DNA of 64,000 nt from Bacteroidales bacterium (GTDB taxonomy: Bacteria; Bacteroidota; Bacteroidia; Bacteroidales; Tenuifilaceae). Position numbers and translations under genes: made by a program. The stretch covers positions 1 through 64,000 of the forward strand of contig JAFGDZ010000072.1 of assembly GCA_016931855.1 (NCBI GenBank), written 5' to 3'. Shown here piece after piece: positions 2,803 to 29,481 of the stretch. Numbering within the stretch: position 1 is the stretch's first letter; each line of letters begins with the position of its first letter. The notes beneath the pieces were generated by a model. It saw only the letters and a program-made list of their open reading frames with translations, searched no databases and was not told the DNA's origin.

Positions 2803-3870
2803 ATGAGAAGAAATGTTGGAATTTTGACTTTTCATTGTGCAACTAACTACGGTGGTGTGCTCCAAGCGTATTCTTTATCAAAATTGATTAAAAGAAAAGG
2901 CTACAATGTTGAATTTATTAATTTAAGACCGAATAATATTAGTAATGATAAGCCTAAACGACCTACGGATTTTTTATTTAGATTAGTTTTTAATCGTTTT
3001 GAAAAAAACTATTACCCCAAATATACTCATTTAATTAAAAATGAATCTGATTTGGTTTTTTTAAACAATAAATTTGATTTTTTTATAGTGGGGAGTGATC
3101 AGGTTTGGAATAAAGAAATAACGAAGGATATTTTTAAAAGTTATTTTTTTGATTTCGTTAACAAAGGAAAACCAAAAATAGCATATGCGGCAAGCTTTGG
3201 AAGTGCTGAACCAGTATTTAATAACCAAGAAAAGGAGGAAATTATTACCTTATTAAAGGAATTTACTGTTATAACTCTAAGAGAAGATTCAGGAAAAAAA
3301 TACTGTGAAAATATTTTGGGGATTAGTGCTAAAGTGGTATTAGATCCAACATTATTATTAAATGATTTTTCAGAAATAATTAAGTGTAATGTTCCTAAGA
3401 ATAGTGATATTATTTGTTTGAAGTTTATTAAATCCAAAGAGTTTATTGAGATAGCTAATTATTTAGCCACTGAGTTAGATTGTAGTGTAAAGTTAGTAAA
3501 TAGTCCCCAAAAATATCCTGGTATAAAAAATATTTATTTTCCAAGTGTAGATAAATGGTTAAGTTTAATTTTCAATGCAAAATTTGTTATCACTGATTCA
3601 TTTCATGCTCTTTGTTTTTGCATCATGTTTAAAAAGGATTTTATAGTTGTCCCAGGAAAGATTGAACGTTTTACTAGGTTACAAAATTTACTGGTTCTAT
3701 TAGAAATAGAAAATAGAGTATTTCAATCAATCGAAGAATTTAAAAATAGTAACATTTGGAATTGTAGAATAGATTTTGAGAAGGTTCACAATAGACTAAA
3801 TCAAGAAAGAGAATGTTCTATGTTTGTACTGGAAGAGGCGTTAAAAATGGCAGAGAAGTATTCAAATTGA
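2803..3870 (+). CDS. Polysaccharide pyruvyl transferase family protein
   Basis: 355 residues. The N-terminal GILTFHCATNYGGVLQAYSL segment and the VGSDQVWN motif near residue 98 are hallmarks of the polysaccharide pyruvyl transferase (CsaB/PssM-like) domain; a typical C-terminal segment with ITDSFHALCF lies near residue 263. Members transfer pyruvate from phosphoenolpyruvate to a sugar as a ketal, or belong to relatives with undefined acceptors. The protein looks cytoplasmic, with no signal peptide. It sits 3 bp after the FrhB-like gene and immediately before a polymerase-like gene, so it likely decorates the repeat unit before export. The acceptor sugar cannot be read from sequence. Confidence 0.85.
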   Translation: MRRNVGILTFHCATNYGGVLQAYSLSKLIKRKGYNVEFINLRPNNISNDKPKRPTDFLFRLVFNRFEKNYYPKYTHLIKNESDLVFLNNKFDFFIVGSDQVWNKEITKDIFKSYFFDFVNKGKPKIAYAASFGSAEPVFNNQEKEEIITLLKEFTVITLREDSGKKYCENILGISAKVVLDPTLLLNDFSEIIKCNVPKNSDIICLKFIKSKEFIEIANYLATELDCSVKLVNSPQKYPGIKNIYFPSVDKWLSLIFNAKFVITDSFHALCFCIMFKKDFIVVPGKIERFTRLQNLLVLLEIENRVFQSIEEFKNSNIWNCRIDFEKVHNRLNQERECSMFVLEEALKMAEKYSN

Positions 3871-3875
3871 ATGGA

Positions 3876-5030
3876 ATGAGCGTTCTTAATAAAATATTAA
3901 TTTTCTTTATTGCTTTTTTTTCTTTAGCAAATATTAATTTATATGCCAATTTTAGTGTAGTTGATTTGCTATTATTGTTCTACGTTTCTGCATCGTTTTA
4001 TATGATTGATTTTAAGATAAGGAGGAATACGTTTGCGTTTATTCTCTTTGCAAATTTATCATTATTGCTATCCTTTATATTTATTTTTTTTTCAAAATAT
4101 TACTTTCAATCATTTATTTATTTATCTCAACTCTGGTTTGTAGTTACAGCTTTACCATTGTTTTTTGAAAGTTTACTTTTACAAGGTAAATTTTATGATT
4201 TTATTCGTTCATATTTAATGTCGTTCGTTGTAATTAGTGCTGGATTCTTGGTTTTTGGTATACTCCATTTCACTAAAGGTATTGGAAGTTTTTGGATATA
4301 TAGGTTATCAGGACTTCATCGGATTTCTTTTGGTGATACATTGGTTTCGAATGATCTTGGAATTTTTTTTATAACGGGTATCCTTTTAATCCAACAGCAA
4401 GTTCAGAATACCTGTAAAAGGAAAGTTTTATCGATCTTAATAACTATTGCGTATTTATTAACACTTTCTAGAACAATTGCATTTGTGGCAATTTTGTTTT
4501 GGTTGTTTTATTTTAGGAAGTTCATTTTTAAAACTTTTTTTTGGGGAATTAGTATTATTTTGATAAGTTTTCCATTTATAATGAATATTCCTAGAGTAGG
4601 TAGATTACTAGATTTTGGTGATGGTGGTAATGGAAGATTAATTAAGATTCAAGAAGCATTTTCAAACATTTTAGTTTTTATTTTTCCCTTACATGGACAA
4701 GGAGAAAATAAGATTGTGAAATTTGAGCATGGTGTACAGTCTATTCATAATTTTTTTCTTAATCTTATTGTAAATATAGGTTTTATTCAGTCTTTGATTT
4801 TATTAATTCCTTTTTTATATGCACTTACTTTTTCTCTTAAGCAGAAAAAAACTGAATCAGAAAAGATTATTGTTTTTGCTCTGATATTACAAATGTTGGT
4901 TATTTCGATTAATGCTTTAATGCTAACTAGGGCAATTTGGATGGCTATTTTTTTATTAATATTTTATTATGTTAATTGTAGTCGTCATGCCCTTAAACTA
5001 CAAAACGATGAAAGTCCTACATGTCATTAA
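3876..5030 (+). CDS. Wzy-like polysaccharide polymerase (polytopic membrane protein)
   Basis: 384 residues from the ATG at 3876, which falls 5 bp after the preceding stop; longer in-frame starts would overlap the pyruvyl transferase by almost 60 bp and add a non-hydrophobic leader. The protein is highly hydrophobic with around ten membrane segments and a larger loop in the C-terminal half (around residues 220-290), an architecture typical of O-antigen polymerases, which have little sequence conservation. Flanked by a pyruvyl transferase and glycosyltransferases, and sharing the operon with a flippase, it is the best Wzy candidate of the first part of the locus. Its end overlaps the next gene by 23 bp. 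Function is inferred from topology and context. Confidence 0.65.
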   Translation: MSVLNKILIFFIAFFSLANINLYANFSVVDLLLLFYVSASFYMIDFKIRRNTFAFILFANLSLLLSFIFIFFSKYYFQSFIYLSQLWFVVTALPLFFESLLLQGKFYDFIRSYLMSFVVISAGFLVFGILHFTKGIGSFWIYRLSGLHRISFGDTLVSNDLGIFFITGILLIQQQVQNTCKRKVLSILITIAYLLTLSRTIAFVAILFWLFYFRKFIFKTFFWGISIILISFPFIMNIPRVGRLLDFGDGGNGRLIKIQEAFSNILVFIFPLHGQGENKIVKFEHGVQSIHNFFLNLIVNIGFIQSLILLIPFLYALTFSLKQKKTESEKIIVFALILQMLVISINALMLTRAIWMAIFLLIFYYVNCSRHALKLQNDESPTCH

Positions 5031-10665: not shown

Positions 10666-11646
10666 ATGATATTTTTACTCGTTTTTACACTTATTTTCTC
10701 CTTTTCTATAACATGGTTGGTTGTTAGGTTTGCCCATCGATTTAAGATGGTAAATCAGCCTAATGAGCGGAGTCTTCACTCTATACCTACACCTAGAGGG
10801 GGGGGGGTGGCTATTGTAACTAGTTGGTATATTGGCATTATAATTCTTTACTGTTTTGGCTTGATAGAGCAAAATTTATTTTTTGCGTTATTAAGTGGAA
10901 TTGTGTTGGCTATAGTCAGCTTTCTAGATGATATAATTGAACTTAAGCCACTAGTTAGATTAGCTGTTCAATTTGCCACTGCAATATTGGCATTTTATTT
11001 TTTAGGAGCACTAAGACCATTAATTATTCCTAGCATTGAAATAAACTATCCTTTATTTATATATCCCTTTGCTATTGTTGGAGTGGTTTGGTTTATCAAC
11101 CTATTCAACTTTATGGATGGTGTAGATGGATTTGCTTCCATTGAGGCTATAATAATAAGTGTTGTATTATATTATTTCTCTGGTGATATTCTTTTGTTGG
11201 TTTTAACGGCAGCTATTGCTGGGTTTCTATATTGGAACTGGCCAAGGGCAAAAGTATTCATGGGTGACGTGGGTAGTACTCAGCTAGGTTTTATACTAGT
11301 AATTCTAGGCATTTACTACCATAATACAATGGAGTTTTCAATACTAAATTGGATAATGCTCTCCTCACCTTTTTGGTTTGATGCTACATTAACCCTTTTG
11401 CGTAGGATTAGGAACAAGGAAAATATAAGTACGGCTCATCGTAAGCACGCATACCAACGGTTAGTTCAATCGGGTTTGTCGCATCTTAAGGTTGACCTCC
11501 TATTAATTGGCCTTAATATTCTAATTGTTTGTTTAATTTTTGTATACAGAGAAGTTAGGGGAATTAGAGTTTTTGCTTACATCTTGTCTATAGTGTTGTT
11601 ATATGCGGTTACATTAACTATAGATAAGCGTTTACCTTTTAAATAG
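10666..11646 (+). CDS. MraY/WecA/WbpL-family polyprenyl-phosphate sugar-1-P transferase
   Basis: 326 residues with about ten or eleven membrane segments. Diagnostic cytoplasmic loops are visible: NQPNERSLHSIPTPRGGG near residues 30-46, FLDDIIELKP near residue 85, NLFNFMDGVDG near residue 146, MGDVGSTQLG near residue 200 and the His-rich HRKHAYQRL near residue 262. Such enzymes load HexNAc-1-P on undecaprenyl phosphate. The Bacteroidota/WbpL branch often uses a deoxy-HexNAc, which would fit the UDP-FucNAc genes downstream. It is a second initiator in addition to the PglC-like enzyme. The conserved Gly-Gly-Gly near residues 45-47 is encoded by a run of ten G (10798-10807), a candidate slippage site. 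Confidence 0.9.
   Translation: MIFLLVFTLIFSFSITWLVVRFAHRFKMVNQPNERSLHSIPTPRGGGVAIVTSWYIGIIILYCFGLIEQNLFFALLSGIVLAIVSFLDDIIELKPLVRLAVQFATAILAFYFLGALRPLIIPSIEINYPLFIYPFAIVGVVWFINLFNFMDGVDGFASIEAIIISVVLYYFSGDILLLVLTAAIAGFLYWNWPRAKVFMGDVGSTQLGFILVILGIYYHNTMEFSILNWIMLSSPFWFDATLTLLRRIRNKENISTAHRKHAYQRLVQSGLSHLKVDLLLIGLNILIVCLIFVYREVRGIRVFAYILSIVLLYAVTLTIDKRLPFK
10798..10807 (+). repeat. Homopolymer of ten G inside the WbpL-like gene
   Basis: Ten consecutive G follow AGA (Arg44) and run into GTG, encoding three glycines and the first base of Val. The next longest G or C runs I noticed in the window are six or seven. A one-base change would truncate the transferase shortly downstream. Confidence 0.9.
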
Positions 11647-11667: not shown

Positions 11668-14607
11668 ATGATCAACTCTGGTAATTCAAGAACTAATTTA
11701 ACCTCTATTCTCGTTCTTGTTTTTTTGCTTAGGTTAGGCATTCCTTATGGAAACTTTTTATTATTACCGTTACTTGCGTTTTCACTAGTAATAGCAATTG
11801 TAAAGGTCTTTAAATTAGGTCTAAAGTCTTTTGTTAAGGATTCATTGGGTTTTTCATTGCTATTATCATTTGCAATTCTGCTAATTAGCTATCTGTTTTT
11901 TTCTAATCACCATAAAATATTGACAATAGAGATTGTCCACTCATTAAGTGCCTTTGTTGTTTTATTTGTTCTGTTATTATTAATTGAAACGAAAGAAGAA
12001 CTTGCTGTTTTTTTCTCTAAACTTAAACTTCTTATTATTGTTTTTTCTGCTGTAATTGGGCTACTTGGTGTATCTAAGTTAATTCTACAATTTAGAGGAG
12101 TTACATTTGATTTCCTAACTTTTGATCAATACCCTGCTGGCAGCTCTTTAACAATAGATTCAAACTATTTTTCCTTATTTATTCTGTTCGGGATAGTCCT
12201 TTTATTATCCGAAATGCTTTATAAGCATAGCTGGAGAAAAGTGTCTTTTTATCAGGCTGTTCTCTTGATTCTTACTCTTAACGTTGTTTTATCGACTTCT
12301 AGACGGGGATTTATAATTGCACTAGCGTTTTTTGTCCTGATTTCATTCCTTTCGTTTCTTTCTTTATTCGTTAAAAAAGAAAAGTTATTGCAATTTAGGT
12401 CAAACACTAGGTTTTATCTTCTTTCTGTTACCGTTGTTGTTGGATTGGGATTGTATTTTCTATTTGGTCTGTCCCCTATTAAACGAGCAGAAATTGTGGT
12501 AAAATCACCTTTTTCTAAGTCATTATCAGATTATTTAACTTCATTAGTGTTTGAAAATCAATCAATTTTTAAAGGTGATAGTTTAAATTATACTTCAGTT
12601 CGTGATAATCTTTGGAGAGGGGATTTTGATCCTTTATATCCGTATAGTGGATGGGGAGTTGGTAATTACTCAATTGTTCAGAAGTTAGAAGGTAATAATG
12701 TTGAAATTGTTCCTAAAGGCAGTGTTGGTTATAAAATTGACAAATCATTTTCTGCAAAAACGTGGAAAGGTGGTGCATATTTTTCTAATTTACTATTTAA
12801 AGGTAAGTTAACAAAAGGCATGCGATATATACCTTCTGTATATTGCTATGTTTCTGAAGATTTTAACGGAGATTGGGTTAGAATAAATGGGAAGGGCTCT
12901 ATTAGTGGATTAGTTTCATCATACTACGATTTAAATAGAAAAGGGGAATGGCAAAAACTACAGGCAACATTTGGGGGTGATTCTTCCAATTTTGAGGTTT
13001 TGCTATCTGCCTCAAAATTAAAGGCGCAATCCTTTGATAGTCTGACTGGATATATTGTGTTTGCATATCCTTCCATAGATAGTTTAGAGTTTGATCCTTC
13101 AAAGCCTATTAGCTGGACAACAAGGGAATTTAAAGAGGTATATCCATTAACAGGTAAAAATGTTGAAATTGTTCCACAGAATGCAATTGGATGTTTACTT
13201 GATTCTACAAGTAATTTAAGTGTTTCTGATGAGAACGGGAAGTTTATTAGTTCTAATGTTCTAAATTTTGAGACAGAGAGAGGTTATCGCTATTTAAGTT
13301 CTATATATGTTTATGTTTCTCCCGATTTTAATGGAGAGAAATTGTGGTTTAGAACAACTGGCCTATCATATAGTATAATAGACGACCATTATGATTTAAC
13401 AAAGAAAGGTACATGGCAAAAATTGCATGTAAATGCAATCGGTGGTAATGGAAAGTCGTCTTCGGAAGTTTTTTTCAATTGGGGTAAGTATAATGGAGAT
13501 TCTTTTCCCAAGGGATATGTGATTTTAGCTTATCCTGATTATATTAGGGTTAAATTCGATCCTAAGAACCCAGATACTTATTCGCCTCATCGTTTTTATA
13601 AAAAACTTTACCCATTGAAAGGGGCTCCTCCTCAGTTAAAGGAAGGAACAGTTGGGTATAGTTTAAATAAATTGGCTCCAGGGAGAACATGGAAGGACAT
13701 ATACTATTCATCTAATATAATATCTAAATTCAGCGTAAATAAGAATGATTCAGTAAGGTTACGTTCTTATTGTTTTGTTTCAGAGGTATTTAATGGCAAT
13801 CAAGTTAGAGTGCAAATTAATGGTGATTGTATTGGAGTTTTGCGTTCTTCCTATAATATGAAAAGAAAAGGAACGTGGCAGTTACTAGAAGCAAAAGCTA
13901 TAACTAAAGGAGGATGGATTAGTGTTGCGCTTTTCTTTTCGCAGAAAAATGTAACCAATTTTAATTCGTTAACCGGCAATGTCATTTTTGCTTATCCCGA
14001 GATTTCTGTCAAGAGAAAAGGTAAGTGGATTGCTGCAGAAGATATGAGTGATATTGAAGAGACTAAGCACACTTCTCTTTCTAAAATTACTTCGCTTGAT
14101 TCTGCATATCATGAAGTAAAATTAGTAAGTCAGGATTCTGTTACTGATTTTGTAATGGAGCCAGTTGTAAATCACTTTTCTGGACCAAGAGTTGTACGTT
14201 GGCGTTATGCTTGGTATTTATATACGAAGGAGTACAGTTGGTGGCAGAAAATAATTGGGAAAGGGCATTTTCATACCGAGAAGTTTGCTAAAATGTTCAA
14301 AAAAGACGAGAATGGGTATGAATACCCGCACAATCCATTGCTGTCTGTTTTATTATACTCTGGAATTTTAGGATTGCTAGCCTATTTATGGCTTCTTTTT
14401 AAGGTATTCTCTTTTTATTGGTTGTATAAAAAGGACTATTGGGTTTGGGGGCTCTGTTTTCTTGCTACGTTCTTTTTTTCGTTCTTTAGTGCTAACAGTC
14501 CATTCGACCCTGCTGTTATGGCATTGTTTATGGTTTTGCCTTTTCTTATACATGCGAAATCTATTTTACCATCGTCGGGTTTCAATAAATCGCTTATAAA
14601 TAAATAG
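11668..14607 (+). CDS. O-antigen polymerase/ligase-like membrane protein with three inserted beta-rich repeats
   Basis: 979 residues, more than twice the usual Wzy/WaaL length. Residues 1-275 contain about nine hydrophobic segments and residues 890-970 the last ones. The large extracytoplasmic region holds an R..LW...YPYSGWGVGNYS segment (around 312-338) and, far downstream, RWRYAW...IIGKGHFH...YPHNPLLSVLLYSGILGLL (around 845-905), both resembling the Wzy_C loop. Between them lie three tandem repeats, about 344-497, 498-653 and 654-785. Each has NVEIVP/PPQL..GTVGY at the start, Y.YVS..FNG in the middle, then YDL..KG.WQKL and a closing V.AYP. They look like beta-sandwich, carbohydrate-binding-like modules, which is an inference from pattern only. 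Polymerase and ligase roles cannot be separated from sequence. Confidence 0.75.
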   Translation: MINSGNSRTNLTSILVLVFLLRLGIPYGNFLLLPLLAFSLVIAIVKVFKLGLKSFVKDSLGFSLLLSFAILLISYLFFSNHHKILTIEIVHSLSAFVVLFVLLLLIETKEELAVFFSKLKLLIIVFSAVIGLLGVSKLILQFRGVTFDFLTFDQYPAGSSLTIDSNYFSLFILFGIVLLLSEMLYKHSWRKVSFYQAVLLILTLNVVLSTSRRGFIIALAFFVLISFLSFLSLFVKKEKLLQFRSNTRFYLLSVTVVVGLGLYFLFGLSPIKRAEIVVKSPFSKSLSDYLTSLVFENQSIFKGDSLNYTSVRDNLWRGDFDPLYPYSGWGVGNYSIVQKLEGNNVEIVPKGSVGYKIDKSFSAKTWKGGAYFSNLLFKGKLTKGMRYIPSVYCYVSEDFNGDWVRINGKGSISGLVSSYYDLNRKGEWQKLQATFGGDSSNFEVLLSASKLKAQSFDSLTGYIVFAYPSIDSLEFDPSKPISWTTREFKEVYPLTGKNVEIVPQNAIGCLLDSTSNLSVSDENGKFISSNVLNFETERGYRYLSSIYVYVSPDFNGEKLWFRTTGLSYSIIDDHYDLTKKGTWQKLHVNAIGGNGKSSSEVFFNWGKYNGDSFPKGYVILAYPDYIRVKFDPKNPDTYSPHRFYKKLYPLKGAPPQLKEGTVGYSLNKLAPGRTWKDIYYSSNIISKFSVNKNDSVRLRSYCFVSEVFNGNQVRVQINGDCIGVLRSSYNMKRKGTWQLLEAKAITKGGWISVALFFSQKNVTNFNSLTGNVIFAYPEISVKRKGKWIAAEDMSDIEETKHTSLSKITSLDSAYHEVKLVSQDSVTDFVMEPVVNHFSGPRVVRWRYAWYLYTKEYSWWQKIIGKGHFHTEKFAKMFKKDENGYEYPHNPLLSVLLYSGILGLLAYLWLLFKVFSFYWLYKKDYWVWGLCFLATFFFSFFSANSPFDPAVMALFMVLPFLIHAKSILPSSGFNKSLINK

Positions 14608-20304: not shown

Positions 20305-21588
20305 TTGAAGAATCTTTTTCTAAATATTATTAAATCCGAGATATTCAGGAATACCTCAATTCTTGTATCGGGTACAGTTTTGGCACAATTGATTCCCATT
20401 CTGTTACAGCCAATTTTACGAAGGTATTATTCTGTTGATGATTTTGGTGCATACTCTATTTATTTGAGTTTAGTCTCAGTTTTTGTTTCCATGGCATCTC
20501 TAAAATACGAACTGGCTATTGTGCTCCCAAAAAGAGATAAGGAATCTGCTAATGTCCTTTTCTGGGCATTGCTAAGTAATAGCATATTCTGTATTTTAAT
20601 GTTGTTCATTATATTCCTATTAAAGAGTCATATACTTGAACTGATTAATTTGCCAGATGAGAAATCTATATACTTATATCTAGTGCCTGTAGGTGTGTTT
20701 TTTCTTAATGGATACCAAAGTATTAACTACTGGCTTATTCGAAAAAAAGGTTTCTTCTCAATTTCTGTGAATAAGTTTGGCCGTAGAGGATTTGAAGGTG
20801 CAACTCAACTATCCGCTATTCCTTTTAAAATCTCAGGAGGATTGCTGTATGGAGATATAGTTGGAAACCTATCAAATTTCTTTTTGGGTATTTTTCAATG
20901 TGCTCGAAAAGGTTTTAATAAAAAGTATCTCAGCCTTGTAAAAGTAAAATACGTTTTAAAGAAGTATAGTTACTTCCCCTTATATAATCTCGTAACAGGC
21001 GTGATGAGTGCTTTTAGCTTCTCGTTACCATTGTTGTTTATTAATAAGTTTTATTCGTTGGAATATACTGGTTTTCTTGATATGACAAGAATGCTACTTT
21101 CAATTCCGCTTGCATTAGTTGCAATATCGTTAGCGAATGTCATATTACAACGGGTGTCTGAAAGTTATCGGAATAAGCGTAGTGTTGCAAAGGAGTTACT
21201 ATCAATTGGGATAGTGATATTTGTACTTGCTATAGTAGAGATAATAGTTATTCGGTTTTGGGGTGTTGAAATATTTACTGTTTTTTTTGGAAAGCAGTGG
21301 GAATATTCTGGTGAAATCTCAAAGGTCCTAGTTCTATCTTATGCTTTTAACTTTTTTGTTACAACGTTCAATACAATTTTTATTGGTTTAAATAGGATAA
21401 AGATTCTAAGTATTTGGCAGGCCTTTTACTTTTTTTCAATTCTTGGACTTTCTTTATTGGGAAATTTATCTTTTATGTCCTTTTTGCAGATATATGTAAC
21501 AATAGAAGTTTTGTGCTCTGTTGTTCTTATAGGATTAATGGTTTATATCGTAACCTCTTATGAGCAAAAAATTAGAGTAGCACGATAA
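20305..21588 (+). CDS. Second polysaccharide flippase (Wzx, MOP superfamily)
   Basis: 427 residues with about 12 membrane segments. The start is a TTG at 20305 (11 bp after the wbuB stop); no ATG occurs for about 60 codons, and the TTG reading provides the amphipathic N-terminus and SGTVLAQLIPILLQPILRRYYSVDDFGAYSIYLSLVSV typical of Wzx. The segment KYELAIVLPK is also common in this branch. It differs in sequence from the flippase at 133 and most likely exports the FucNAc-containing repeat unit. Two flippases in one locus suggest two glycan pathways. Confidence 0.87.
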   Translation: MKNLFLNIIKSEIFRNTSILVSGTVLAQLIPILLQPILRRYYSVDDFGAYSIYLSLVSVFVSMASLKYELAIVLPKRDKESANVLFWALLSNSIFCILMLFIIFLLKSHILELINLPDEKSIYLYLVPVGVFFLNGYQSINYWLIRKKGFFSISVNKFGRRGFEGATQLSAIPFKISGGLLYGDIVGNLSNFFLGIFQCARKGFNKKYLSLVKVKYVLKKYSYFPLYNLVTGVMSAFSFSLPLLFINKFYSLEYTGFLDMTRMLLSIPLALVAISLANVILQRVSESYRNKRSVAKELLSIGIVIFVLAIVEIIVIRFWGVEIFTVFFGKQWEYSGEISKVLVLSYAFNFFVTTFNTIFIGLNRIKILSIWQAFYFFSILGLSLLGNLSFMSFLQIYVTIEVLCSVVLIGLMVYIVTSYEQKIRVAR

Positions 21589-26967: not shown

Positions 26968-27000
26968 GGAGTTCCTACTGTATAATGGAACTCCTTTTTT
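26968..27000 (+). terminator. Intrinsic terminator after the FdtB-like gene
   Basis: GGAGTTCC at 26968-26975 pairs with GGAACTCC at 26987-26994 around an 11-base loop, followed directly by six T (26995-27000). It ends the long glycan operon and separates it from the polymerase/ligase gene at 27018. Confidence 0.75.
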
Positions 27001-27017
27001 GTAAAAGAGACTGTTGT

Positions 27018-28310
27018 ATGAGGGTGGTTTTTAGTGATATTGCTGATTACTCAAGGAAACTAATTCCTTTTGTTTTTATTGCCATTGCTTTTTTAATTCC
27101 CATTTACCAACAAGGAGCAATTATAGGACTAGTTGTTTTGTCGGGTATTTGGTTGCTAAGTGGTAATTGGTTGAATTTGGTTGGTGCGTTTAAAAGCAAT
27201 CTTTTGCTTTTTTCTCTTATCGCTTACTGGTTGCTACATGTTGTTAGTCTTTTCTATTCGGATAATGTAAGTGTTGGGCTATCTGATATCCAGCAAAAGC
27301 TCTCATTTATTGCTTTCCCTCTAATCGCGATTTCATCGGCAAAACAAATAGTGCCACGTTTTAGAACCGTAATAACGGCATTCCTTTTAGGATTGGGATT
27401 GATGACTGTTTTTAGTTTAATACAGGCCTCATTCTTGTCGCTTCATTTTTTTAAGGAGACCGTAGTTTTTAATCCTCATCCACTAGTTACTCCGTGGGAA
27501 AACTTCTTTTTGTATAGTAAGTTTGCATTGCCTTTTCATCCTACTTATTATTCAATGCATCTTTTGTTGGGCATTACCTTTTTGTTTGGATTGATAAAAG
27601 AAAATAAGGGGAAAATACGATTAATTATATTGTACTGTTTATCTATAGTGTATTTTATAGGAATAACTCTTCTTCTTTCCTCTAAAGCCGGTATAATAAC
27701 CCTTATAGTGATAATTTCCTTAGGTTGTTTTTGGTTATTTTTAAAGAAAGTGGGAACCGTTTTTAGACTCGTTTTTTTAGGGGGGATTATGCTATTTGTT
27801 TTTCAAATAATGATTCATAATTCTAGGTTTGCATTATTGCTAAGTGGTTTGGGGGTTGATATAGAACAAACTAGTGAATATGGTAGCGAAGAACTACAGC
27901 ACTTGGAAAGTGGTGTGATGGTAAGATTACGTATATGGAAAAGTATTCCTGATATTGTTGGAGATAGATGGATTGCTGGTGTTGGTGTAGGCGATGCAAA
28001 GCAGGAACTACTGAGGGGGTATAGCGAGTTAAAACAGCTAGATGCCTTGAAAAGTGAATATAATGCCCATAATCAGTATTTAGAGACTTTTGTTTCTTTG
28101 GGGGTTATTGGTTTAGTTTTGCTTGCTTTTGTTTTAGGTAAGGCAATGTATGTTTCATTCTCTCAAAGGGATATTGTTGCCTTAATGTTTATTGTTATTA
28201 TTTGCCTAAATATGCTGTTTGAATCGATTTTTGAGAGAATAGCTGGAGTTCTGTTTTTTGGATATTTTTTAAGCCTATTCTTTGTAAACAGGAGTGGACA
28301 AGTCGAGTAG
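27018..28310 (+). CDS. O-antigen ligase/polymerase family membrane protein (Wzy_C)
   Basis: 430 residues from the ATG at 27018. An ATG at 26985 lies inside a terminator hairpin and is unlikely. About ten to twelve membrane segments flank a large periplasmic loop; the loop contains VRLRIWKSIPDIVGDRWIAGVGVGDAK near residue 295 and AHNQYLETFVSLGVIGLVLLAF near residue 345, the standard Wzy_C/WaaL pattern with the conserved Arg and His. The protein either ligates a finished glycan to its lipid or protein acceptor, or polymerises. Being cut off from the operon by the terminator and lying at its end, a ligase role (WaaL-like) is plausible but unproven. Confidence 0.82.
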   Translation: MRVVFSDIADYSRKLIPFVFIAIAFLIPIYQQGAIIGLVVLSGIWLLSGNWLNLVGAFKSNLLLFSLIAYWLLHVVSLFYSDNVSVGLSDIQQKLSFIAFPLIAISSAKQIVPRFRTVITAFLLGLGLMTVFSLIQASFLSLHFFKETVVFNPHPLVTPWENFFLYSKFALPFHPTYYSMHLLLGITFLFGLIKENKGKIRLIILYCLSIVYFIGITLLLSSKAGIITLIVIISLGCFWLFLKKVGTVFRLVFLGGIMLFVFQIMIHNSRFALLLSGLGVDIEQTSEYGSEELQHLESGVMVRLRIWKSIPDIVGDRWIAGVGVGDAKQELLRGYSELKQLDALKSEYNAHNQYLETFVSLGVIGLVLLAFVLGKAMYVSFSQRDIVALMFIVIICLNMLFESIFERIAGVLFFGYFLSLFFVNRSGQVE

Positions 28311-28485: not shown

Positions 28486-29481
28486 CTACTTAATGGTCTC
28501 AACAATATCCTTTTTATACCTCCAAACCAGCATAAAAATAAAACCTAGGATTAGAATTATCGGGGCAATTCTTTTTACGTAAGACATAAGCGAGTTCTCT
28601 ACACGCGATAGCGGAGTAAAGTCCTGAATAATTGTAACAGGATCGGGATATACGGTTAATCTCCTTTCTAGTTCTTGCTTCTCGCTAATTAAAGTGAAAA
28701 TTTCTCTGTGGTAAAGTTTGCGTTCCTTTTCGGTAAATACCACCATTTGGTTTGCACCTACTTGTGGGGTAATTCTATCTTTTTCAAAATACTCAAAATT
28801 CTGAAGGCTATCTAACTTACGTATTTCCTGCGCCGTTTGATTTATCATATCCTGAAGTTGGCGCTTTCTTGTCTCGTTTACCTGAATAACGTAAGTGTTT
28901 GATTCTATGTACTTGTATAACCCCGATTTCATGAGGTTAAAAATGGATTCGTCAAAAACCTCGGCTTTAACAAAGAATCTATTGGGAATCTTTCTAATGG
29001 TTGTATCCTTGGAGGTCATGTATTTATCTTCGTAGTCGATGAGGTCAATAACACCGTCAAGGTTAGTGTCATATCCCCAGTACGCTTTAATGCTCTTAAT
29101 TTTCTCGGCGTTTTCTATACTTATACTCAAGTTCTGCGCTAGTCCTTCTTTATTGCCAGTTCTGCAAAGCTCATTAAGGTTGTTAATAATGCTAATCATA
29201 TCTTCATTCTTAATGGCGTTGCTTGAAGCAATCATGTCCGAAGAGTAGAACCTTGAAGAGGAGAAGAAAATAGCAACGCTAAGCGCTACCCCTAATCCGA
29301 AAATGATGCTCAGCTGAACTATGTTTTTAAACGAGAAGGATATGAAGAACAGTACAACTCTCCATATTAACAGGAAGAGGCCTTTGAATGCATTGGATAT
29401 ACTTTTGCCCATGCGGCTAAAAAGTTCCAATAGGTCAATTTCGTCGTTTGGTCGGTTTTGTTGTAGTTGCGTGTTTTCCAT
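28486..29481 (-). CDS. Wzz/GumC-like polysaccharide chain-length regulator
   Basis: 331 residues. After an acidic, Asn/Gln-rich N-terminus there is one long hydrophobic region (about residues 35-75, which may form two helices), then a soluble helical region with charged coiled-coil-like segments (about 195-275, including KRQLQDMINQTAQEIRKLDSLQ), and a final membrane helix (about 300-322, IAPIILILGFIFMLVW) ending in a basic tail. This two-membrane-ends topology with a periplasmic coil is that of Wzz/PCP chain-length determinants, in the form common in Bacteroidota. It is transcribed toward the ligase-like gene and divergently from galE. No tyrosine-kinase domain is fused. Confidence 0.75.
   Translation of the reverse strand: MENTQLQQNRPNDEIDLLELFSRMGKSISNAFKGLFLLIWRVVLFFISFSFKNIVQLSIIFGLGVALSVAIFFSSSRFYSSDMIASSNAIKNEDMISIINNLNELCRTGNKEGLAQNLSISIENAEKIKSIKAYWGYDTNLDGVIDLIDYEDKYMTSKDTTIRKIPNRFFVKAEVFDESIFNLMKSGLYKYIESNTYVIQVNETRKRQLQDMINQTAQEIRKLDSLQNFEYFEKDRITPQVGANQMVVFTEKERKLYHREIFTLISEKQELERRLTVYPDPVTIIQDFTPLSRVENSLMSYVKRIAPIILILGFIFMLVWRYKKDIVETIK

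Follow-up and report, generated by a model that had tools for sequence, protein, structure and literature searches.

The window analysed here is a stretch of 64,000 nucleotides from a Bacteroidales bacterium of the Tenuifilaceae (GenBank assembly GCA_016931855.1, contig JAFGDZ010000072.1, positions 1 to 64,000 of the forward strand); its genome is referred to as G000 and the family of that genome as f1. Within a polysaccharide locus of the window lies P0001, a gene for a membrane enzyme of the Wzy/WaaL superfamily kind, whose periplasmic loop carries three tandem modules, of a sequence type called type 1 below, that are predicted to fold as beta-sandwiches. The features of P0001 are as follows.

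11668..14607, +: P0001, the whole gene, a Wzy/WaaL-superfamily enzyme with a modular periplasmic loop (exact open reading frame, 979 residues)
11686..12468, +: membrane helices 1-9, residues ~7-267 (from hydropathy, the AlphaFold model and the positive-inside rule)
12304..12306, +: Arg213 (STSRRG), candidate first phosphate-binding arginine, invariant in 12 of 12 aligned rows (PMC10920833)
12622..13089, +: type-1 module 1, residues 319-474 (segment 328-484 modelled separately by AlphaFold, with a predicted local distance difference test score, pLDDT, of 92)
13090..13557, +: type-1 module 2, residues 475-630, closest to module 3 of the four-module relatives
13558..14025, +: type-1 module 3, residues 631-786, closest to module 4 of the four-module relatives
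14026..14181, +: linker, residues 787-838, poorly conserved (pLDDT <50 in 794-835)
14182..14562, +: C-terminal catalytic part, with periplasmic helices bearing Arg841 and the PHN motif (His888), then helices 10-12

Architecture of P0001 and fold of its modules

The first-pass annotation of this DNA had described a 979-residue Wzy/WaaL-like protein with membrane segments at its two ends only, and both points are upheld. Hydropathy and a full-length AlphaFold model place nine helices at residues ~7-267 and three at ~890-965. In the short loops, lysine and arginine number 16 in 89 residues on the predicted cytoplasmic side and 5 in 81 on the predicted periplasmic side; since the positive residues lie mostly on the former, the large loop is assigned to the periplasm. 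As modelled, P0001 shows the layout of the superfamily, some 12 membrane helices and a large periplasmic loop ahead of the final ones. From the last N-terminal membrane segment to His888 this loop measures 616 residues. By the same measure, the loops of ten other Wzy_C-type proteins from G000 and six related genomes span 46-193 residues, in keeping with the earlier statement that ordinary Wzy/WaaL loops are much shorter; these controls are WzyC27 (window 26985-28310), WzyA4 (window 3813-5030), C28 and C63 (further Wzy_C genes of G000, from contigs 28 and 63) and six WzyC homologues.

Three residues on the periplasmic side, R213, R841 and H888, are invariant in 12 of 12 aligned rows and probably correspond to R191, R265 and H313 of WaaL; the histidine of the PHN motif is missing in two distant members of the clade (G111 and G212). 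The only Pfam match of P0001 is a weak Wzy_C (PF04932) stretch at residues 839-907, which at 16.1 bits is below the gathering cut-off of 31.7. Among 17 proteins of the clade scanned for Wzy_C, L145 (42.7 bits) and L148 (48.4 bits) pass, eight fall below the cut-off (the nearest being L030, 31.2 bits) and seven have no match; P0001 is tied to the superfamily via these relatives rather than by its own score. Two motifs assigned to Wzy_C at first pass, GKGHFH (864) and PHNPLL (887), do lie within the weak stretch. The third, GWGVGN, does not belong there: it sits at 328, at the start of module 1, and has counterparts in SWTTREF and TYSPHRF at the starts of modules 2 and 3.

The repeat unit is ~156 residues long, and three tandem copies fill most of the loop. 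Their homology, also proposed earlier, is clear from pairwise local alignment, which gives scores of 253, 220 and 123 against shuffle maxima of 60, 64 and 58 (1000 shuffles each). The boundaries first given for them (344-497, 498-653 and 654-785) have to be moved: in structural comparison the units begin at an 'FDP' strand, ~24 residues upstream, which puts them at ~319-474, 475-630 and 631-786. An alignment of 24 modules, taken from 12 proteins, has seven invariant columns (V68, S69, Y93, W101, G134, A139 and P141, in the numbering of segment 328-484).

Module 1, modelled by AlphaFold with an alignment of the 24 modules, gives a beta-sandwich of the carbohydrate-binding module (CBM) type (pLDDT 92.0; predicted template modelling score, pTM, 0.87). 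Its top Foldseek match in the PDB is the C-terminal sugar-binding domain of EclA (E 2e-4); further matches include CBM4, CBM16, CBM61 and BcsB, as well as MAM domains and a phage tailspike, with template modelling scores of ~0.35-0.54. Comparison of module 1 alone by VIA-align gives Z up to 9.4, and the match at rank 50 still has 8.6. In the full-length model, module 1 aligns with CBM61 (Z 9.8, root-mean-square deviation (rmsd) 3.2, 129 residues aligned), module 2 with 2c26 (Z 10.4, rmsd 3.0, 128 aligned) and module 3 with the K2-2 tailspike (Z 10.0, rmsd 2.9, 129 aligned). Against solved CBM structures the models score Z 8.6-9.8 with CBM4, CBM16, CBM22 and CBM61 chains and 10.4 with 2c26. The carbohydrate-binding-like fold suggested at first pass, a beta-sandwich of the CBM4/16/22/61 kind, is thus predicted for each module separately (Z 9.8-10.4). 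In a viral structure library, phage tail and lectin-like domains have the fold of the type-1 module.

The overall fold is common to type-1 modules and CBM families 4, 16, 22 and 61, but none of the 24 modules passes the cut-off of Pfam CBM_4_9 (PF02018), and only one matches it at all (E=0.0027); module 1 of G005, outside the 24, is likewise below the cut-off (E=0.012, 16.4 bits). A sequence search of solved structures gave no significant match. No WaaL chain is among the 50 matches listed for the full-length model; since beta domains fill the list, this says nothing on the membrane part. A common fold is no proof that the modules bind sugar.

Relatives and the content of their loops

P0001 matches 11 of 60 genomes, its own counted. 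Of 393 genomes of the order, 19 have members of the clade by a profile of the catalytic C-terminus and 9 have type-1 modules, the window's genome being counted both times; in a phylum-wide sample of 395 genomes these modules occur in one, again the window's own. A first scan of the contigs of named genomes with P0001 alone gave no relative, but a profile scan gave 13 loci in metagenome-assembled genomes whose titles name Bacteroidales, Bacteroides, Rikenella, Bacteroidia or Bacteroidetes; five of the 13 contigs agree in length with contigs of G012, G016, G019, G020 and G025 from the earlier set. The profile search suggested at first pass for other Wzy_C proteins with such inserts has yielded relatives, with one to four modules, in other genomes. 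A sequencing fusion of two genes is ruled out by these homologues, which include one in the single-contig genome G017. Among viral contigs, 2 and 30 stretches matched patterns and none was confirmed as a relative of P0001; a phage or mobile origin was set aside. The module hidden Markov model (HMM) was iterated on proteins later counted with it, which makes its bit scores dependent on that set; aligned modules were used for the wider search. HMMs built by the same kind of iteration also underlie the loop-content types given next.

Among the 31 members of a tree of the enzyme core, type-1 modules alone are present as one copy in seven members, two copies in two, three in two (the window and G019) and four in four. 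Type-2 modules alone are present as one copy in four members and two in two. In L044 type 1 is interrupted by type 2, three members have unassigned inserts and six have no module. Judged from these sequences, the catalytic loop of the clade carries exchangeable cargo, with type 1 one to four times, type 2 once or twice, a nested arrangement, unassigned inserts or none. In the nested case (L044:5706-8552, +) a complete type-2 (CBM_4_9-like) module lies inside a type-1 module. The large inserts that match neither type (L144:5225-7825, -; L146:3503-6190, -; L145:1267-3258, -) look beta-rich by eye. Three of the six module-free members carry a C-terminal initiating sugar-phosphate transferase, Bac_transf (L144:941-2884, -; L146:838-2838, -; L147:904-2688, -), over cut-off in the two fusions scanned and read by eye in the third, L146:838-2838; one chain would here combine the initiating step of the pathway with a late one.

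Type 2 passes the CBM_4_9 cut-off (25.9 bits) in two of six proteins scanned (L140 and L141, 31.7 and 34.0 bits), while L044 and L142 are below it and L030 and L139 have no match. The type-2 modules of G044 and L044 are 34% identical (E 4e-32). Seven of 295 genomes of the order have type 2, six in the loops of this clade and the seventh as a weak match in a 1583-residue frame. Treatment of types 1 and 2 as one sequence family was rejected, as profile comparison finds no similarity, and they are kept as separate types.

Type-1 modules also occur at the C-terminus of short-loop Wzy_C proteins in G033, G121, G133 and G232 (88-130 bits), with a weak match (40 bits) in a second G121 protein:

L031:7080-8828, -: short-loop Wzy_C protein with one C-terminal type-1 module
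L069:5601-7397, -: the same architecture
L071:5191-7023, +: the same architecture
L073:4619-6436, +: the same architecture
L070:6165-7997, -: the same architecture, weak match

All five are over the Pfam Wzy_C cut-off and have, by eye, an extra hydrophobic segment before the module, which would place the module in the periplasm. As it is found both here and in the large loops, the type-1 module is paired with the Wzy_C enzyme class in two architectures. In G044 a Wzy_C protein (L104:359-2236, +) has a beta-rich insert (~180 residues, by eye) in another loop, between earlier membrane segments; profile comparison shows no similarity of this insert to type 1. Long Wzy_C frames elsewhere in these genomes look by eye like C-terminal tetratricopeptide repeats (TPR).

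On the 31-row core tree, loop content has changed at least 11 times, or seven by type alone; the tree has long branches (G165, L036, G212 and G351p) on which these counts depend, and some placements are unsure. Excluded from it are the fragments of G003 and G020, the distant G281, and G393, which is cut at the start of its contig. In a tree of the modules themselves, copies are related by position. Modules 1, 2 and 3 of G019 group with the second (100/99), third (99/92) and fourth (95/88) of four-module proteins; those of the window are nearest the first, third and fourth, in placements that are not starred. From these positions, the module missing from the window's protein appears not to be the one missing from G019.

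In G012-G025, the one pair without saturation, the ratio of nonsynonymous to synonymous substitution rates (dN/dS) is 0.10-0.15 for the modules, 0.17 and 0.15 for the core and 0.20 for the linker; in G005-G012, which is near saturation, two modules have 0.12 and 0.18. To judge by codon substitution in the usable pair, type-1 modules are under purifying selection. They are more similar than the N-terminal membrane core in G005-G017 and G005-G012, except for module 2 of G005-G017; in G012-G025 module identity is 73-78% against 78% for that core.

The polysaccharide locus

Four neighbours of P0001 bear on its role.

10666..11646, +: WecA-like polyprenyl-phosphate glycosyl-1-phosphate transferase, directly upstream of P0001 and a frequent neighbour of its homologues
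20305..21588, +: Wzx-like flippase (Wzx2), frequent in homologous loci
26985..28310, +: WzyC27, the second Wzy_C protein of the locus, 441 residues, with an ordinary short loop
28486..29481, -: Wzz-like protein, 331 residues, with hydrophobic segments near each end

The gap between the WecA-like gene and the start of P0001 is 21 bases. P0001 is followed by genes resembling those of UDP-N-acetylfucosamine synthesis (best NCBIfam matches FnlA, a WbcJ-type reductase and WecB), by glycosyltransferases and by the flippase; the FnlA and WbcJ-type reductase matches are below their own NCBIfam cut-offs. A WecA-like gene is present in the stretch at 14 of 17 type-1 loci and a Wzx2-like gene at 10 of the 17; several of these stretches end at contig ends, and the G020/L045 fragment (a 3.9 kb contig) is outside the count. 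WecA-like proteins (E <1e-80) are found in 11 of 27 genomes, nine of which also have a type-1 loop protein, the other two being G002 and G007. A second Wzy_C protein (419-441 residues) lies ~8-14 kb downstream in all seven f1 genomes whose contigs reach far enough. A Wzz-like homologue flanks all 10 loci examined, two of them (G002 and G007) without P0001. The Wzz-like protein at 28486-29481 has no Pfam or NCBIfam match, and G000 also holds two Pfam Wzz matches elsewhere.

Two further observations concern the locus. One stretch holds two kinds of initiating enzyme, a Bac_transf protein (window:8099-8743, +) and the WecA-like protein at 10666-11646 (+), as is also seen near the relatives L024, L025, L034 and L043. 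A sub-threshold beta-helix match (E 3.9e-5) lies at window:24211-25374 (+).

Role of the enzyme and of its modules

How Wzy-type polymerases recognise their repeat units and retain the chain is an old question, and the usual answer has been partner proteins, Wzz or Wzc. The variation in loop domains among the relatives of P0001 suggests an enzyme that holds its own product. P0001 may be a glycan-specific Wzy-type polymerase of a Wzx/WecA locus, with modules that grip the nascent or acceptor glycan, a reading given slightly less than an even chance. The 12-helix core would present the invariant Arg/Arg/His set on the periplasmic side, and the enzyme would move the polymer from one undecaprenyl-pyrophosphate onto the next flipped repeat unit. 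The chain of CBM-type modules, predicted to open the catalytic loop that joins helices 9 and 10 and to precede the Arg841/His888 region, would keep the growing or acceptor glycan close to the active site; such a grip could raise affinity or processivity and aid specificity. Exchange of array length and module type among relatives is expected if arrays are matched to different repeat units. The proposal starts from the modelled topology and fold, the homology of the modules, the variation of the arrays, the constraint in one pair and the frequent partners; from these we infer that the enzyme polymerises rather than ligates, that its modules bind glycan and what such binding would do. A more far-reaching form, in which tandem exchangeable CBM-type modules grip the growing chain and the length and composition of the array, without any part for Wzz, set how processive the enzyme is, how long the chain grows or which repeat unit is chosen, is doubtful. 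A role of the modules as a simple ruler, or in place of Wzz, is weakened by the Wzz-like protein at all 10 loci examined.

These enzymes form a natural series, with 0, 1, 2, 3 or 4 modules, of at least two types, in this one loop; the series allows array content to be set against glycan length and specificity, and individual modules to be studied apart from the membrane enzyme. Enzymes of this class are known, and so is the module fold. The Wzy/WaaL superfamily (PF04932; CAZy GT-C1 with O-Lig GT121 and the inverting polymerases) shares with P0001 12 helices, a long C-terminal-side periplasmic loop and the Arg/Arg/His residues (PMC10920833). P0001 departs from it in a loop of ~616 residues taken up mostly by three beta-sandwich modules, and in its score below the Pfam cut-off. 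In Wzc, a jelly-roll domain likewise lies at the periplasmic side of the membrane, next to Wzy, and has been proposed by its authors to recognise repeat units (PMC12881504); this domain belongs to a co-polymerase, whereas the P0001 clade has one to four tandem modules, exchanged for other types, in a polymerase-like enzyme. The carbohydrate-binding domain of Wzt, from O-antigen ABC transporters, is also a beta-sandwich fused to a membrane machine of the O-antigen pathway, and binds the terminus of the O-antigen glycan (PMC9445017). Unlike the modules, it is carried by the exporter's ATPase subunit, is cytoplasmic and occurs once per chain (PMC9445017). The carbohydrate-binding domains (CBDs) of BcsB, in cellulose synthase, are CBM-like periplasmic jelly rolls beside a polymerising membrane enzyme, but BcsB is a separate subunit and its CBD-1 contacts a TPR protein (PMC11379886). 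For Wzz, both chain binding and length control have been proposed (PMC10030265). An exchangeable array inside the catalytic loop was not found described in the open-access literature searched, outside which most subscription papers lie; within that scope the result is consistent with the statement made at first pass, that no described enzyme is known to have this design.

Several findings weigh against the proposed grip and polymerisation. The full-length model is of moderate confidence (pLDDT 70.5, pTM 0.50), the Pfam match of P0001 is below cut-off, MAM, tailspike and cyclase chains resemble the type-1 modules at like Z, and the fold includes non-binding domains. The remainder bear on the choice between polymerase and ligase. 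That P0001 is a polymerase is given a little over an even chance; a ligase or another block transfer is possible but distinctly less favoured. Of comparable standing is the specific alternative that P0001 is of the O-antigen-ligase/oligosaccharyl-transferase type and transfers finished glycan to an acceptor, its modules docking the acceptor or a long donor while WzyC27 polymerises. The second Wzy_C protein in all seven f1 loci that reach far enough agrees with such a division of labour. At His888 P0001 has the pattern H[NSQ]X9GXX[GTY], which we take to be the WaaL motif; 21 of 23 module-bearing or clade proteins scanned have it, but so do WzyC27 and C63. The catalytic histidine does not separate polymerase from ligase here, since other Wzy_C proteins of G000 keep it as well. 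Among the inverting polymerases of clan GT-C1, however, most published families have Asp or Glu in place of the ligase histidine (PMC10920833), and given this the retention of His in P0001 leans towards a ligase. The type-2 relative in G044, the sole Wzy_C protein found on its contig, is one gene from a PF14296 Wzy (32.0 bits, over cut-off, as in no other of the 15 genomes searched) and may there act as a ligase or as an additional polymerase. There are also other Wzy-like genes upstream: in the window (3813-5030, below cut-off), in G012 (C19:28031) and in G016 (C21:28754).

Other comparisons argue for polymerisation. In G002, which lacks P0001, a PF14296 Wzy adjoins WecA and Wzx, yet the WzyC27 homologue is kept, which counts for P0001 as the polymerase; the G002 stretch also has an EpsG protein, so the PF14296 gene is not the sole candidate polymerase. 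G007, also without P0001, has two multi-pass proteins with no Pfam match beside WecA and WzyC, which favours neither role. The divergence of the P0001 core is close to that of WzyC27 and exceeds that of C28 and C63 (mean identities 39%, 36%, 51% and 45%). Less change would be expected of a ligase whose acceptor is conserved, and the fast divergence therefore speaks against one. The difference is clearest within a genus: between G016 and G019 the P0001 core is 34% and the WzyC27 homologue 31% identical, against 73% for WecA, 68% for C28 and 60% for C63, and these three and the Wzz-like protein all fall within 60-77%. Low identity of this kind is the behaviour of an enzyme tied to a changing repeat unit, although the near equality of P0001 and the second Wzy_C protein (39% vs 36%) means that variability does not separate these two. 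The fusion of three clade members to an initiating sugar-phosphate transferase fits block assembly at least as well as ligation.

The modules could instead be protein-docking or spacing domains, for example for the Wzz-like protein or an export partner, which is considered unlikely. Jelly rolls with such contacts exist, as in BcsB CBD-1 and its TPR partner (PMC11379886), MAM and tail-fibre domains share the module fold, and a candidate partner is at hand in the Wzz-like protein that flanks all 10 loci examined. That protein is equally present in G002 and G007, however, both without P0001, and it is steadier (mean identity 54%, six genomes) while module type and number vary; one of the module types, moreover, is a curated CBM family.

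That the loop is a permissive insertion site whose modules are passengers with little function is highly improbable: the frequent changes of content (at least 11 on 31 rows) and the 6 of 31 members without a module would suit it, but module dN/dS is low (0.10-0.15) in G012-G025, the modules are mostly more similar than the membrane core (in G005-G017 and G005-G012, and about equally so in G012-G025), and they are related by position.

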